A stretch of 64,000 bases of DNA, taken from NCBI GenBank assembly GCA_947499555.1, contig CANMOU010000001.1, positions 248,001 through 312,000 of the forward strand, in the 5' to 3' direction. The position numbers and the translations under genes are program-made. The notes under the pieces are model-generated. The model did no database searches and had not been told where the DNA came from. It saw only the letters and a list, made by a program, of their open reading frames with translations. Origin of the DNA: an uncultured Roseovarius sp. (GTDB lineage Bacteria; Pseudomonadota; Alphaproteobacteria; Rhodobacterales; Rhodobacteraceae). This document shows positions 26,021-31,734 of the stretch, piece after piece. Within the stretch, counting starts at the first letter, position 1. The number at the start of each line of letters is the position of its first letter.

Positions 26021-26290
26021 TTACTTGTTGATGTCCTCATGCACGATGCGAGTTTGGTCATCAGGAGAGCGGAAAACCCGCCGCAGGACCAGCCAGGAGA
26101 CGAGCGACAGCGCGCCGAAAATCGCCATCAGGCTCGAAACGCCAAGCGCCGGAAAGAGGGCCACGACACCCGCCATAATCGCAGCCCCAATCGCGATGCC
26201 AAGGAATATGTAGGCAGGCACCAGAAGTTCGAGGATGGCGAGTAGAAGCGCGGCGCAAAGCCAGACCCACCAAAGCGAAACCCAGGCCAT
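26021..26290 (-). CDS. Short NfeD-like membrane protein
   Basis: 89 residues with three membrane helices: LWWVWLCAALLLAILELL, FLGIAIGAAIMAGVVALF and SLMAIFGALSLVSWLVL, and a short charged tail. The helical part matches NfeD-type partners of SPFH proteins, but the C-terminal OB-fold of full NfeD is missing; such short forms are known. It overlaps the SPFH gene stop (TAATG), so the two are translated together and probably form one membrane complex. Confidence 0.85.
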   Translation of the reverse strand: MAWVSLWWVWLCAALLLAILELLVPAYIFLGIAIGAAIMAGVVALFPALGVSSLMAIFGALSLVSWLVLRRVFRSPDDQTRIVHEDINK

Positions 26291-27180
26291 TATGCTTTTC
26301 CTTTCAGCATGTTGAACGCGTTGCCAAAGGCCTCGAGCGCCTGCGCGGGTACGATCACGGTCTGGGTTGATGGACCCTGACCCAGGGCATTGAGCGATTC
26401 AACCTGTTTCAGCGCGACTTGGTATTGCGCAGCTTCAAGACCGTTATCGGCAATGGCCTTGGCCACAACGCCCGTGGCGTAAGCTTCGGCATCAGCCTCC
26501 ACCCGGCGCGCTTCGGCGGCTTTCTGAGCGGCGTAAAGCTCGGCATCGGCGGCAAGCTCGACGGAGCGTTTCTGACCTTCGGCCTCTGTCACTTGCGCGC
26601 GGCGGGCGCGCTCGGCGTTAAGCTGTTGTAGCATCGCCTCGCGCGTGGCCTGATCAAGGTTCACGTCCAGGATTTCGGCGCGGGTCACCTCGATGCCCCA
26701 GGCATCGACCGCCTCTTCGACGGAAAGCTTGATGGTTTCAATCAGCTGCGCGCGGTTCGCCTGAACGTCATCGAGGTCCATTTTACCGATCTCGGCCCGG
26801 ACGATGCCGGCCACGGTTGTTGCAATCGCGGCATCGACGTCACGGATACGGTAGACGGTCTTTTCCGGTTCCGTAATGCGGTAGAAGACAGATGTTTCGA
26901 CCTGCACCAGCACGTTGTCCTTGGTGATCGCATCCTGACTGGCATTGGGCAGCTGGCGTTCCAGAATGGATATCCTGTGTCTTACAACATCCAGAAACGG
27001 CACGATAAAGTTGATACCCGGCCCAAGAACCGAGCGCAGTCGGCCAAAGCGCTCGACGACATGTTGTTCGGATTGGGGAACGATTTTGACGCCCTTGAAG
27101 ATGACGATAAACAAGAGCGCGGCAAGCAGGATGTATATCAGGTTGGACGAAAGCAGGCTGATGATCTGTTCTTCTGTCAT
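26290..27180 (-). CDS. SPFH/stomatin-like membrane protein (QmcA type)
   Basis: 296 residues. Residues ~10-30 form the single membrane helix (LSSNLIYILLAALLFIVIF). The SPFH domain follows, starting VPQSEQHVVERFGRL, with ERQLPNASQDAITKDNV and RAEILDVNLDQATREAM. The C-terminal part is a coiled coil rich in Ala/Glu/Arg (ERARRAQVTEAEGQKRSVE). Stomatin-type proteins build ring-like oligomers that scaffold proteases or organise membrane domains. It is paired with the NfeD-like gene, the common bacterial arrangement. The promoter region carries a perfect 14-bp palindrome shared with tgt. Confidence 0.93.
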   Translation of the reverse strand: MTEEQIISLLSSNLIYILLAALLFIVIFKGVKIVPQSEQHVVERFGRLRSVLGPGINFIVPFLDVVRHRISILERQLPNASQDAITKDNVLVQVETSVFYRITEPEKTVYRIRDVDAAIATTVAGIVRAEIGKMDLDDVQANRAQLIETIKLSVEEAVDAWGIEVTRAEILDVNLDQATREAMLQQLNAERARRAQVTEAEGQKRSVELAADAELYAAQKAAEARRVEADAEAYATGVVAKAIADNGLEAAQYQVALKQVESLNALGQGPSTQTVIVPAQALEAFGNAFNMLKGKA

Positions 27181-27293: not shown

Positions 27294-28418
27294 TTGGGCT
27301 TTTCCTTTGATCTGAAGGCCACCGATGGGGCGGCGCGAACCGGGGTGGTCTCGACCCCGCGTGGGGATATTCGTACACCGGCTTTCATGCCGGTGGGCAC
27401 CGCCGCGACCGTCAAGGCGATGATGCCGGAAAGCGTCCGAGAAACGGGGGCGGATATCCTTTTGGGCAACACCTATCACCTGATGCTGCGGCCAACGGCA
27501 GAGAGGGTGGCCGCCTTGGGCGGATTGCACAAGTTCATGAACTGGGAGCGGCCAATCCTGACCGACAGCGGCGGATTTCAGGTGATGAGCCTTGCGAGTC
27601 TGCGAAAGCTCACCGAAGAGGGGGTGACGTTCAAGTCCCATATCGACGGGTCCAAACACGCGCTGACGCCGGAGCGATCGATGGAAATACAGCGGCTTCT
27701 GGGCAGCGATATTGTGATGTGTTTCGATGAATGCCCGGCCTTGCCGGCAACCGATGATGAGGTGGCACGCGCCATGCGCCTGTCGATGCGCTGGGCCGCG
27801 CGATCGAAAGAGGCGTTTGGCGACAGGCCCGGTTACGCGCTTTTTGGTATTATGCAGGGCGGTGTCACGCGTGAGCTGCGAGAGGAAAGCGCAAGCGCGC
27901 TTGTTGACATCGGGTTTGATGGCTACGCGGTGGGTGGCCTTGCGGTGGGCGAAGGACAGGAGGCCATGTTTGGGGTGCTTGATTACGCCTGTGACGCGCT
28001 GCCCGAGGATAAGCCGCGTTACCTGATGGGTGTGGGCAAACCCGATGACATCGTGGGCGCAGTCAAGCGCGGCATCGACATGATGGATTGCGTCTTGCCC
28101 TCGCGGTCAGGGCGCACAGGCCAGGTTTTTACCCGGATGGGCCAGCTTAACATCAAGAACGCACGACACATGGATGATCCCAGACCGCTTGACGCGGCCT
28201 GCCAATGCCCGGCCTGTCGCAATTATTCGCGTGCTTACCTCCATCATCTCTTTCGCAGTCAGGAAATCCTAAGCTCGATGCTGCTGACCTGGCATAACCT
28301 GCGGTATTATCAGGATATCATGCACGAGATGCGCACGGCGATTGCACAAGGGCGGTTCAAAGCCTGGGAGGCGTCATTTCATGCGGGCCGGGCTATGGGG
28401 GATATTGAGCCGGTCTAA
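27294..28418 (+). CDS. tgt: tRNA-guanine transglycosylase
   Basis: 374-residue enzyme exchanging guanine-34 for preQ1 in tRNAs Asp, Asn, His and Tyr, on the way to queuosine. Seen: [11 protein letters not shown]-type N-terminal strand, [11 protein letters not shown] with the active Asp region, [17 protein letters not shown], and the zinc site [18 protein letters not shown]. The length is normal for bacterial Tgt. The start is a TTG, the only in-frame initiator near the conserved N-terminus, with a weak AGG motif 8 nt upstream. The queuosine substrates tRNA-Asp are encoded at 34150 and 34249. No other queuosine genes are adjacent. A 6-bp hairpin at 28500-28514 follows the gene. Confidence 0.95.
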
Positions 28419-28685: not shown

Positions 28686-28754
28686 ATGCCTTACGCGATG
28701 TTTGCGATCAGTTGGATGTCTGCGGCGGTTCTGGCCGTTGCGGTGCTGGCTTAA
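28686..28754 (+). CDS. 22-aa hydrophobic peptide, copy 1 of a tandem triplet
   Basis: ATG to TAA over 22 sense codons: starts MPYAMFAISW and ends VAVLA. Apart from Ser and Trp at 9-10 it is entirely hydrophobic, enough for one membrane span. Two further ORFs of exactly 22 codons follow at 28856 and 29040 and share M1, A4, F6, S9, W10, A17 and L21 with it. Copies 1 and 3 agree at 13 of 22 residues. No strong ribosome site is seen, only GTGAG near -9. It is too short for normal gene calling. Possible roles: small membrane protein, type I toxin-like peptide, or leader peptide; none is proven. Confidence 0.6.
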   Translation: MPYAMFAISWMSAAVLAVAVLA

Positions 28755-28855
28755 AGAAAATTAGGTTTGTAATGGTCCGTTTACCCTTTGAAAAGGATTT
28801 GCACGGATTTTCGGTTTCACGGGCTGTTCACGCCCGGGTGATGGGAACGGAAATC

Positions 28856-28924
28856 ATGACATTTGCGACTTTTTCCTTTTCTTGGGCGTTGATGGCGATG
28901 GTAGCGATTACTTTGCTGGCCTGA
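28856..28924 (+). CDS. 22-aa hydrophobic peptide, copy 2 of a tandem triplet
   Basis: ATG to TGA, 22 sense codons: starts MTFATFSFSW, ends ITLLA. It shares nine positions with each of the other copies. It begins 170 bp after copy 1. A hairpin (CACGGGC/GCCC-GTG with a 2-nt bulge, 28818-28840) ends 15 nt before the ATG, and GGGAACGGAA between them could be the ribosome site. The frame is also open upstream from an ATG at 28771, so a ~51-residue version with a charged N-terminal part is possible. The alignment with copies 1 and 3 favours the short form. Confidence 0.6.
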   Translation: MTFATFSFSWALMAMVAITLLA

Positions 28925-28945
28925 CGTCGCGGAAATTATCAGAAC

Positions 28946-28996
28946 CACGCGCGCCCATGTGAACACATGTCAGGGGAACCTGTGTGGGTGCGTGTG
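28946..28996 (+). ncRNA. Possible structured RNA: three-way junction with GNRA tetraloop
   Basis: The arms CACGCGCGCCCA (28946-28957) and TGGGTGCGTGTG (28985-28996) pair over 12 positions including two G-T. Inside them are two small hairpins: TGT-GAAC-ACA (28958-28967) and CAGG-GGAA-CCTG (28971-28982), the latter closed by a GNRA tetraloop. It lies between peptide copies 2 and 3. It may be a leader element for copy 3, a processed small RNA, or part of an antisense control. No covariation test was possible. Confidence 0.35.
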
Positions 28997-29039
28997 CGTT
29001 TTGGGCATAAGTGTCTGTTTACCAAGTGAGGATAATACC

Positions 29040-29108
29040 GTGCCATTTGCCCTTTTCGCCACCAGCTGGATTTCTGTGACCGTGCTCGCCGCGACCGTTC
29101 TGACCTGA
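29040..29108 (+). CDS. 22-aa hydrophobic peptide, copy 3 of a tandem triplet
   Basis: GTG to TGA, 22 sense codons: starts MPFALFATSW and ends ATVLT. It begins 184 bp after copy 2, and AGTGAGGA 8 nt upstream is the best ribosome site of the three. Compared with copy 1, 11 shared residues other than M1 and W10 could show synonymous change, and eight of them do (for example P2 CCT/CCA, F6 TTT/TTC, S9 AGT/AGC, L16 CTG/CTC). That is the mark of selection on the peptide. It is the last copy before lon, 223 bp downstream. Confidence 0.65.
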   Translation: MPFALFATSWISVTVLAATVLT

Positions 29109-29225
29109 TCGGCGCAGAATCCCGGGAAAATCTCAATTTCAACGCAAAAGTGCCTTGTGCGGAGCGGACGTGCAGGGCATGGTCGCGCGCATCCGAGCCT
29201 GGCGCGGTCCAGGCGGCGATGAAGG

Positions 29226-29253: not shown

Positions 29254-29271
29254 AAACCCAAGCGAAACGGA

Positions 29272-29312
29272 AAAGGCCGGTGGTTGCCGCAAAGCGGGGC
29301 CGGAGCCTTTTT
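29272..29312 (+). terminator. Terminator-like hairpin in the lon leader
   Basis: AAAGGC-CGG (29272-29280) pairs with CCG-GA-GCCTTT (29300-29310), enclosing CCGC-AAA-GCGG, and the run continues to five T. It has the form of an intrinsic terminator but ends only 19 nt before the lon ATG, just ahead of its AAGGA ribosome site. Any lon transcript starting upstream must read through it, so attenuation is possible. It would also end transcripts of the peptide genes. Confidence 0.6.
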
Positions 29313-29331: not shown

Positions 29332-31734
29332 ATGAAAGATCCCCTAAACGCTTCTTACCCGGTGCTTCCGCTGCGCGATATTGTGGTTTTCCCACATATG
29401 ATCGTGCCGCTGTTCGTCGGCCGCGAGAAATCGGTCCGCGCACTGGAAGAAGTGATGCAGGACGACAAACAGATCCTGCTCAGCAGTCAGATTGACCCTT
29501 CCGAGGATGATCCGACATCGGACGGCATCTACAACACCGGCGTGCTGGCCAATGTTCTGCAACTGCTGAAACTGCCTGACAGCACGGTCAAAGTGCTGGT
29601 TGAGGGCGTGAGCCGCGTGCAGATAACCGACTACATCGAAAATGAGAATTTCTTCGAGGCGCGTGCCGAGTATCTTACAGAGATGCCGGGTGACGCAGCC
29701 ACGATTGAGGCACTGCTGCGGACAGTTACGGATGAATTCGCGCGCTACGCCAAGATCAAGAAGAACATCCCCGAAGAGGCCCTCGCCGCCGTGACCGAGG
29801 CCGATGATGCCGCGAAGCTGGCCGACCTTGTGTCGGGGCATCTGGGCATCGAGGTGGACCAAAAGCAAGAGCTTCTGGAAACCCTGTCTGTCAGTGAGCG
29901 GCTGGAGAAGGTCTATGGCCTGATGCAGGGCGAAATGTCGGTGCTTCAGGTCGAGAAAAAGATCAAGACCCGCGTCAAATCCCAGATGGAGCGCACACAG
30001 CGCGAGTACTATCTGAATGAGCAGATGAAGGCCATTCAGAAAGAACTGGGCGATGGCGAAGAGGGCGAAGGCGAAGTCGCTGAACTTGAAGAGAGAATCG
30101 CCAATACGAAGCTCTCGAAAGAGGCGCGGGACAAGGCGGAAGGCGAGCTGAAGAAGCTCAAGAACATGAGCCCGATGTCGGCTGAGGCCACCGTTGTGCG
30201 CAACTATCTTGACTGGATGCTGTCTATCCCTTGGGGCGTGAAGAGCCGCGTCAAGAAAGACCTAGGCCGTGCTCAGGACGTTCTCGACAAAGACCATTAC
30301 GGTCTTGAGAAAGTCAAAGAGCGCATTGTCGAATACCTCGCGGTGCAGCAACGCTCGAAAAAGCTCAAGGGGCCGATTCTGTGCCTTGTGGGGCCTCCGG
30401 GCGTCGGCAAGACATCTCTTGGTCAGTCCGTGGCCAAGGCGACCGGGCGCGAATTCATTCGCATCAGCTTGGGCGGCGTGCGTGACGAATCTGAAATCCG
30501 CGGCCACCGCCGGACTTACATTGGCTCGATGCCGGGCAAAATCATCCAGGCGCTGAAAAAGGCGAAAACCACCAATCCCCTCATTCTTCTCGATGAGATC
30601 GACAAGATGGGGCAGGATTTCCGGGGTGACCCGGCAAGCGCGATGCTTGAGGTGCTGGATCCGGAGCAAAACTCCACCTTCATCGACCACTACATGGAAG
30701 TGGAATATGACCTGTCGAACGTCATGTTCCTGACCACGGCGAACTCTTATAATATGCCGGGGCCGTTGCTTGATCGGATGGAGATCATTCCGCTTGCGGG
30801 TTATACCGAGGACGAAAAGCGCGAGATCGCCAAGCAGCACCTGCTGCCAAAACAGATCAAGAATCACGGGCTGAAGGCAAAAGAATTCAGCTTTGGTGAG
30901 GATGCTCTTACAGACATCATCCGTTACTACACCCGGGAGGCCGGTGTGCGAAATCTTGAGCGTGAGATTGGTAAAGTGGCCCGTAAGGCGCTAACCAAGA
31001 TCATCAAGAAAGAAGCGGAAGCCATTGATGTCACATCAGAAAACATCGATGACTTCCTTGGCGTCAGAAAGTTCAAGTTTGGACTGGCGGAAGAGAAGGA
31101 TCAGGTCGGTGTCGTGACAGGTCTGGCCTATACATCCGTCGGCGGTGAGCTTTTGAACATTGAAGCGCTGCGTTTGCCGGGCAAAGGCCGGATGAAGACC
31201 ACAGGTAAACTGGGCGACGTGATGAAGGAAAGCATCGACGCGGCCAGCTCTTACGTGCGCTCGGTGGCGCCGGCCATCGGGATCAAACCGCCGAAGTTCG
31301 AGAAGTGGGATATTCACGTCCACGTGCCCGAAGGGGCGACCCCGAAGGACGGGCCAAGTGCCGGTCTGGCAATGGTGACGTCGATTGTCTCAGTCCTCAC
31401 GGGTATTCCGATCCGCAAGGATATCGCGATGACCGGCGAGGTGACCTTGCGGGGCACAGCACTGCCGATTGGCGGGCTGAAAGAGAAACTTCTGGCCGCA
31501 CTGCGTGGCGGAATTACCACTGTTTTGATCCCGCGTGACAACGAAAAAGACCTCACCGAAATTCCGGACAACGTCAAAGAAGGGCTGAAAATCATCCCGG
31601 TGGATCACGTGAGCGAAGTTCTTGAGTTGGCCCTTGTCGAAAAGCCTGAACCTGTCGAATGGGACGAGGAAGCCGAGGAGGCCGCGGCGGCGGCCTTGCA
31701 GACGGCCCAAGGTTCGGGTGCGACGGCCCATTGA
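29332..31734 (+). CDS. lon: ATP-dependent protease Lon
   Basis: 800-residue cytoplasmic AAA+ serine protease degrading misfolded and regulatory proteins. The N-terminal LON substrate domain starts YPVLPLRDIVVFPHMIVPLF. Walker A is GPPGVGKTSL and Walker B is LILLDEIDKM. The C-terminal protease domain has the Ser-Lys dyad at Ser676 (PKDGPSAG) and Lys719 (GGLKEK), 43 residues apart as in E. coli. The frame is open 30 codons upstream, but AAGGA before the ATG at 29332 and the family N-terminus set the start. The last ~25 residues are an acidic, Ala-rich tail. It has an unusual leader hairpin and a strong terminator behind it. Confidence 0.97.
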   Translation: MKDPLNASYPVLPLRDIVVFPHMIVPLFVGREKSVRALEEVMQDDKQILLSSQIDPSEDDPTSDGIYNTGVLANVLQLLKLPDSTVKVLVEGVSRVQITDYIENENFFEARAEYLTEMPGDAATIEALLRTVTDEFARYAKIKKNIPEEALAAVTEADDAAKLADLVSGHLGIEVDQKQELLETLSVSERLEKVYGLMQGEMSVLQVEKKIKTRVKSQMERTQREYYLNEQMKAIQKELGDGEEGEGEVAELEERIANTKLSKEARDKAEGELKKLKNMSPMSAEATVVRNYLDWMLSIPWGVKSRVKKDLGRAQDVLDKDHYGLEKVKERIVEYLAVQQRSKKLKGPILCLVGPPGVGKTSLGQSVAKATGREFIRISLGGVRDESEIRGHRRTYIGSMPGKIIQALKKAKTTNPLILLDEIDKMGQDFRGDPASAMLEVLDPEQNSTFIDHYMEVEYDLSNVMFLTTANSYNMPGPLLDRMEIIPLAGYTEDEKREIAKQHLLPKQIKNHGLKAKEFSFGEDALTDIIRYYTREAGVRNLEREIGKVARKALTKIIKKEAEAIDVTSENIDDFLGVRKFKFGLAEEKDQVGVVTGLAYTSVGGELLNIEALRLPGKGRMKTTGKLGDVMKESIDAASSYVRSVAPAIGIKPPKFEKWDIHVHVPEGATPKDGPSAGLAMVTSIVSVLTGIPIRKDIAMTGEVTLRGTALPIGGLKEKLLAALRGGITTVLIPRDNEKDLTEIPDNVKEGLKIIPVDHVSEVLELALVEKPEPVEWDEEAEEAAAAALQTAQGSGATAH

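Follow-up and report, generated by a model that had tools for sequence, protein, structure and literature searches.

Several kinds of described system come close to the genes considered here. Ibs/Sib and Ldr/Rdl are type I toxin loci of enterobacteria. MgtS, AcrZ, and CydX are regulatory small single-helix membrane proteins of Escherichia coli; small membrane proteins of enterobacteria modulate larger membrane proteins, and CydX, CcoM, and KdpF are models of the small accessory subunit. A Trp placed a fixed 12 residues before the stop recalls the leader peptide TnaC. To our knowledge, genes of about 22 residues are usually passed over by annotation programs. The genes described below constitute an apparently undescribed family that is among the shortest selected bacterial genes.

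The window is the whole stretch of DNA that was analyzed, 64,000 nucleotides from an uncultured Roseovarius sp., and all positions are counted from its first letter. Between tgt (27294..28418, + strand) and lon (29332..31734, + strand), the distance from the tgt stop at 28418 to the lon start at 29332 is 913 bases, and this gap includes neither an Rfam family at the gathering score nor a tRNA. Divergent from tgt, on the minus strand at 26021-27180, are genes that by eye are NfeD-like and SPFH-like. The gap contains three ORFs on the plus strand: copy 1 (28686..28754, MPYAMFAISWMSAAVLAVAVLA, with Met after the Trp), copy 2 (28856..28924, MTFATFSFSWALMAMVAITLLA, with Ala after the Trp), and copy 3 (29040..29108, MPFALFATSWISVTVLAATVLT, with a GTG start and Ile after the Trp). 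An initial annotation of this DNA had placed them correctly, as three ORFs of 22 sense codons each with spacings of 170 and 184 bp. Its description of their resemblance is also accurate: M1, A4, F6, S9, W10, A17, and L21 are common to all copies, copies 1 and 3 are identical at 13 of 22 residues (59%), and, with M1 and W10 set aside, comparison by eye shows a different codon at 8 of their 11 shared residues. The DNA between the copies has only short partial repeats (the best is 16 nt at 81%), which argues, as had been claimed, against a recent DNA duplication.

By their sequences, the three ORFs are genes of one family. For a blind profile, 32 members belonging to other clades were used, and neither the window nor its three closest relatives (L003-L005) contributed to it. 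On the window it found copy 1 at E 3e-9, copy 3 at E 1.5e-8, and copy 2 at E 1.2e-5, and the next-best E among the 1952 reading-frame segments was 0.69. Because this profile returns the three ORFs alone below E 0.69, they are beyond chance. A profile of the three ORFs likewise matches them alone in the window's own genome (G000, 3.73 Mb), and L003-L005 have all three intact in the same places. A purine-rich stretch, seen by eye, precedes each start and is weak at copy 1; Shine-Dalgarno-like sequences were recognized, also by eye, at copy 3 (TGAGGA, 29027..29032, + strand) and at copy 2 (GGGAA, 28843..28847, + strand, conserved in L003-L005). The conserved stretch ahead of copy 2 (28772..28855, + strand) is open in the copy-2 frame, and copy 2 was considered as the C-terminal end of a 50-residue protein (28772-28924) that is open in four genomes. 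This candidate was rejected, as the codon differences in the stretch (16 non-synonymous versus 7 synonymous) are not coding-like.

Similar peptides are present in the tgt-lon gaps of related genomes, where the initial annotation had proposed that they be sought, both on profile search and on direct reading of the gaps. At least 26 of the 85 congeneric (Roseovarius) genomes carry relatives, a lower bound because gaps were read directly in part of the 85. The count derives from 24 genomes matched by profile at E <= 0.1, less G080 (a piece of a 150-residue frame), plus G018, G040, and G027 from direct reading. With gaps read in part of the genomes, the other 59 gave no peptide, and the family is patchy within Roseovarius. 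One copy was found in 15 of the 26 carriers, and two or three in the remaining 11. In a sample of 394 genomes from 393 genera, relatives occur in at least 6 of the 392 genera other than Roseovarius. Four of these genera (G164, G324, G385, and G432) were matched by a profile built without them, and two more (G232 and G333) by a wider profile also built without them, whose matches were followed up to E 0.02. In each of the six, a single copy was found, encoding 22 residues on the lon strand, upstream of lon by about 200 to 715 nt. Two Tateyamaria genomes also carry one peptide gene, and Tateyamaria may be one of the six genera. A set of 289 genomes from across the class, including members of the same family, gave a match in the window's own genome alone; in the sampled genomes the peptides are seen in one bacterial family only.

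Several other matches were rejected. That of G250 is false, being internal to a frame of 646 residues, and those of G375, G453, and G358 (wider profile, E <= 0.02) are parts of longer frames or fragments. The match in G006:C8 is not to peptide genes; it falls in a 201-bp tandem repeat array (L247, 1464-1905), in which partial profile matches arise by chance.

The family is closely tied to its locus. A scan of 143 gap sequences, in which certain loci overlap or recur, gave 50 rows of at least 18.7 bits, all on the lon strand, with the next score at 7.3; the gap-scan profile was built partly from the same members and shows separation rather than a blind find. All copies of the carriers but one have the orientation of lon and lie between tgt and lon. 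The exception is in G062, which has one copy before lon and another beside a gene that by eye is recJ-like. The residue after the Trp is Met, Ala, and Ile in the window, L003, and L004, and Met, Ala, and Met in L005, and each of the two-copy genomes G053, G006, G035, G012, G065, G079, and G062 encodes one Met-after-Trp and one Ala-after-Trp peptide. This pairing of paralogs may stem from one old duplication.

The pattern of codon differences indicates that purifying selection acts on the peptide. The initial annotation had argued for such selection and had named a dN/dS-type check; pooled over eight ortholog groups (23 sequences, with L004 and unpaired singles left out, uncorrected for relatedness), pS is 0.45 and pN 0.10, and the resulting pN/pS of 0.22 upholds the claim. 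Orthologs of copy 1 have the lowest ratio of the three window copies (0.06; pS 0.58, pN 0.04), followed by those of copy 2 (0.25; pS 0.34, pN 0.08) and copy 3 (0.27; pS 0.43, pN 0.12), and the small group L051/L053, with 3 differences, has a ratio of 0.72. Of the 382 differences summed over all groups of orthologs, 231 fall at the third codon position. Comparison of these sequences shows that the ORFs share ancestry, that purifying selection acts on them, and that they are linked to the tgt-lon gap.

De-replication of the gap set left 43 entries, with L011 and L177 counted as one place; together with the peptides of G062, G232, G333, and the window, these give 45 distinct peptides. Length is 22 residues in 37 of the 45 (range 21 to 26), and the Trp is followed by 12 residues to the end in 44 of the 45 (42 of the 43 de-replicated gap entries). 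No peptide has an acidic residue (D/E), four have K/R, and mean hydropathy over the 45 is 1.86. The ORFs are short, hydrophobic, and selected, the features that mark small single-helix membrane proteins as a kind. Across 30 aligned members, conservation has its strongest period at 102 degrees, the value that an alpha-helix would give; 0.27% of shuffles are as strong (p 0.003), and with Trp 10 neutralized the signal is modest (p 0.016, 1.6% of shuffles). The best-conserved positions after the start (3, 6, 10, 13/14, 17, and 21) form one stripe; positions 4, 16, 18, and 22 are intermediate, and 2, 8, 11, 12, 15, and 19 are the most variable. Such a stripe is the pattern that would be expected of a membrane helix packing against another helix. 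The helical period of conservation and the hydrophobic composition support the membrane-helix character that the initial annotation had given the peptides, and the composition suggests that they insert into the membrane.

One conserved helix face would also suit a small accessory subunit whose respiratory or transport complex is encoded at another locus. CydA is present in all 11 of the two- or three-copy genomes, versus 48 of the 85 overall; several of the 11 are close relatives, and the link may be one of kinship. Counting against a subunit, 8 of the 26 carriers have no CydA match (two of these eight are less than or about 95% complete), and the association of CydA with the peptides has a Fisher p of 0.16. 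KdpA is found in one of the 85 genomes, a non-carrier, and in none of the 26 carriers, and copy number varies from 1 to 3. A CydX-like subunit of bd oxidase and a KdpF-like subunit were rejected on these absences, and an accessory subunit role seems distinctly unlikely.

A probable lon promoter with the pattern CTTG...GGCAT, which we take to be heat-shock-like, was recognized by eye at 29154..29182 (+ strand), 178 nt before lon and downstream of the last peptide gene. Visual inspection of the data supplied this pattern. In strict form, about 150-180 nt before lon, it occurs in 16 of 29 peptide gaps and 22 of 84 peptide-free gaps, 38 of 113 in all, and in none of the 113 reversed controls; most gaps fail it, and the window misses it by one base. 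In the peptide gaps that have the pattern, it always lies downstream of the last peptide gene. The shortest gap is 186 nt without peptides and 347 nt with them. Because the pattern lies downstream of the peptides and peptide-free gaps can be shorter, the peptide units look like cassettes added between tgt and the lon promoter. The suggestion in the initial annotation that the peptides act on Lon found nothing in its favor beyond position, given a promoter pattern downstream of the last peptide and the 59 Roseovarius genomes that gave no peptide (gaps read in part).

Control of lon, or of the following peptide gene, by a leader or arrest peptide through ribosome stalling would explain why the peptide genes lie on the lon strand in these gaps and why the distance from Trp to stop is held at 12 residues while total length ranges from 21 to 26. 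It fits poorly with a lon promoter pattern that is downstream of the last peptide where it is seen, with stop-to-lon distances of 183 to 1520 nt, with the G062 copy located elsewhere, and with terminator-like hairpins observed by eye between copies 1 and 2 in L008, L021, and L186. The helical period of conservation likewise speaks against stalling, and a role of this kind is very improbable.

A separate feature lies just before the lon start. At 29271-29312, between the lon promoter and lon, the window has a long imperfect hairpin (AAAAGGC...GCCTTTTT), seen by eye and absent from the hairpin scan listing. It is terminator-like and might be an attenuator; among 60 congeneric genomes, 41 have a DNA match that covers this stretch.

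An upstream box, 71-86 nt before the start and with a consensus near GGTMAGG-AAAA-CCKGCATAGG, is shared by about half of the copies and occurs in several genera; half of the upstream regions are without it. Under leave-one-out scoring with a matrix, 19 of the 38 upstream regions lie above the 99th percentile of shuffles and 17 of 38 outscore every one of the 1140 shuffles, in a test that is not fully independent, as close relatives of each site stayed in its matrix. The box of L177 was missed, because L011, the second entry for this place, has just 16 nt of upstream sequence. Gaps without a peptide score at most 15.0 (L136, a weak box rejected as a peptide locus) and then 11.0, and the high-scoring rows marked as peptide-free (L068, L184, L099, and L188) are repeats of carriers. 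A TANNNT hexamer follows the box by 19-20 nt in 18 of 22 sites, with 2 occurrences at all other offsets from 5 to 35. This spacing was spotted by eye and then counted, on hand-chosen sites that include near relatives (L003/L005, L051/L053, and L028/L029) and two weak ones (L065 and window copy 3).

In the window, copy 3 is preceded by a degenerate box (ATGTCAGGGGAACCTGTGTGGG, 28967..28988, + strand) 73 nt before its start, which aligns with AAGTCAGGGTAACCTGACTAGG of L003. Its score of 9.2 is the best of the region, above the 99th percentile of shuffles (4.5) and below their maximum (12.6). The -10-like hexamer TAAGTG (29008..29013, + strand) lies 19 nt after this box and fails the strict TANNNT. 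Copies 1 and 2 of the window are without the box (scores of -7.8 and -12.7). By eye, TATAAT-like hexamers preceded at 18-19 nt by CTAGGT are visible in the copy-1 regions of some genomes with two copies. If the hexamer is a -10 element, the center of the dyad would be near -43.5, the place of a class II activator, and leaders would be about 17-32 nt long. Box and hexamer together form a putative activator-type promoter belonging to many of the copies themselves.

At three or fewer mismatches, the box pattern has 7 matches in the window's own genome versus 8 for the reversed control, which is no excess, and 145 versus 85 across 11 genomes. Within Roseovarius there are 38 close matches in 27 of the 85 genomes, versus 1 for the reversed pattern. 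Fifteen of the 38 are one recurrent site at the apparent coding start of a TPR-like gene on the opposite strand (14 of the 15 were inspected, and the gene context was seen in L266 only), 6 have a form seen inside an SPFH-like gene (L208 and L212), and 3 are the tgt-lon sites themselves. A known regulon was rejected as the identity of the box, most matches in the genus being of these three sorts, and a wider regulon is uncertain because they make up 24 of the 38. Identification as a FixJ-like box was also set aside, as the literature searched gave it no confirmation. Other sites precede genes resembling a small multi-helix membrane protein (G060, G027, and G014) or thioredoxin (G050), a possible regulon. 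The dyad box GGTAAGGGAAACCTGACTA stands before the small multi-helix membrane protein-like gene in L252, L272, and L275, near position 1500, and a close variant in L270 precedes the thioredoxin-like gene. Near position 1500 in L256, L264, and L265, the box is followed closely by TTTCCTTACG or a near variant, ahead of a conserved stretch that has no obvious sense ORF and, in L256 and L264, no Rfam match.

The likeness to Ibs/Sib and Ldr that the initial annotation had drawn holds for the arrangement. As type I toxins, each of the peptides would damage the membrane, and its mRNA would be silenced by an antisense RNA encoded opposite or beside it; very short, hydrophobic ORFs that are tandem in some genomes, patchy, and found in one family only are in keeping with this. 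The likeness is not seen in sequence, for the five members searched, nor, at the predicted leader length of about 17-32 nt, in hiding of the ribosome site; conservation along one helix face also sets the peptides apart. Five members have no significant Pfam match (the best, FixQ at E 0.29 and DUF2759 at E 0.021, are both below curated cut-offs), no toxin model appears among their matches up to E 10, and NCBIfam gives no match for the same five; the filters of these searches may drop weak matches. The literature as partially covered, on small proteins and ribosome profiling in Rhodobacter, type I toxin-antitoxin systems in Rhodobacterales, and small membrane proteins in Roseobacter, has nothing on this locus.

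Folding is ambiguous at one leader length and unremarkable at another. A 75-nt leader leaves the ribosome site a little less open than in shuffles (openness 0.36 versus 0.44), and folding is stronger at copy 3 of L003-L005 (z -1.3 to -2.6). A palindromic stretch between copies 2 and 3 has a fold z of -1.8. All three would be in keeping with a silenced toxin; the mean z over 45 regions with the 75-nt leader is -0.46, and a second run of -75..+35 on 45 regions gave -0.57. A leader of 28 nt, close to the length predicted, gives an openness of 0.45 (0.46 for shuffles) and a mean z of +0.39. Hiding of the ribosome site at the RNA level was rejected as a rule, there being no difference from shuffles at the predicted leader length. 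The palindromic stretch (28920-29035) contains the copy-3 box and could be the end of the copy 2 transcript. Conservation on one helix face, the putative activator-type promoter of many copies, and the finding of a single copy in 15 of the 26 congeneric carriers and in all six other genera also oppose a toxin, and that reading, weakened by these sequence features, is now an unlikely one.

The family probably consists of single-helix membrane peptides that are made under certain conditions and work through the packing of helices. On this account the peptide genes would be transcribed separately, when an activator protein binds the box, centered near -43, under some stress or growth condition. 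Each gene would yield a peptide of 21-26 residues, mostly 22, that is one transmembrane alpha-helix and little else. Once inserted into the inner membrane, the peptide would pack through its conserved face (F3, F6, W10, V13/A14, A17, and L21) on itself, on its paralogs, or on a larger membrane protein, and would thereby modulate its membrane partner. Distinct copies in one genome suggest divided roles or mixed assembly. Because each of the seven two-copy genomes has one peptide of either kind, even G062 with a copy at another locus, the Met- and Ala-after-Trp peptides could be the two halves of a mixed bundle of free 22-residue helices, a speculative idea to which we attach little probability. 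If true, this bundle would be a membrane machine (a pore, sensor, or scaffold) built only from 22-residue helices. The family offers copies that serve as natural replicates, a helix face whose conservation is mapped, and a candidate promoter, and the notion of a bare membrane helix as a gene product can be tested by point changes on the two faces of a 22-residue peptide.

Compared with the described systems, the peptides resemble Ibs/Sib and Ldr/Rdl in being encoded by very short ORFs that are hydrophobic, stand in tandem, and occupy a gap flanked by ordinary genes. Unlike those toxins, they match no toxin Pfam model (five members), have a conserved helix face, keep to a strict locus, and in many copies have a putative activator-type promoter of their own. 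Like MgtS, AcrZ, and CydX, they appear to be single helices, and conditional expression and packing on a larger membrane protein are proposed for them; they differ in being shorter, at 22 residues, with hardly anything outside the membrane and no significant sequence match. With TnaC and other leader peptides they share a short ORF and a Trp at a fixed distance from the stop, whereas here the lon promoter pattern lies further down, conservation is helical, and copies occur in tandem.
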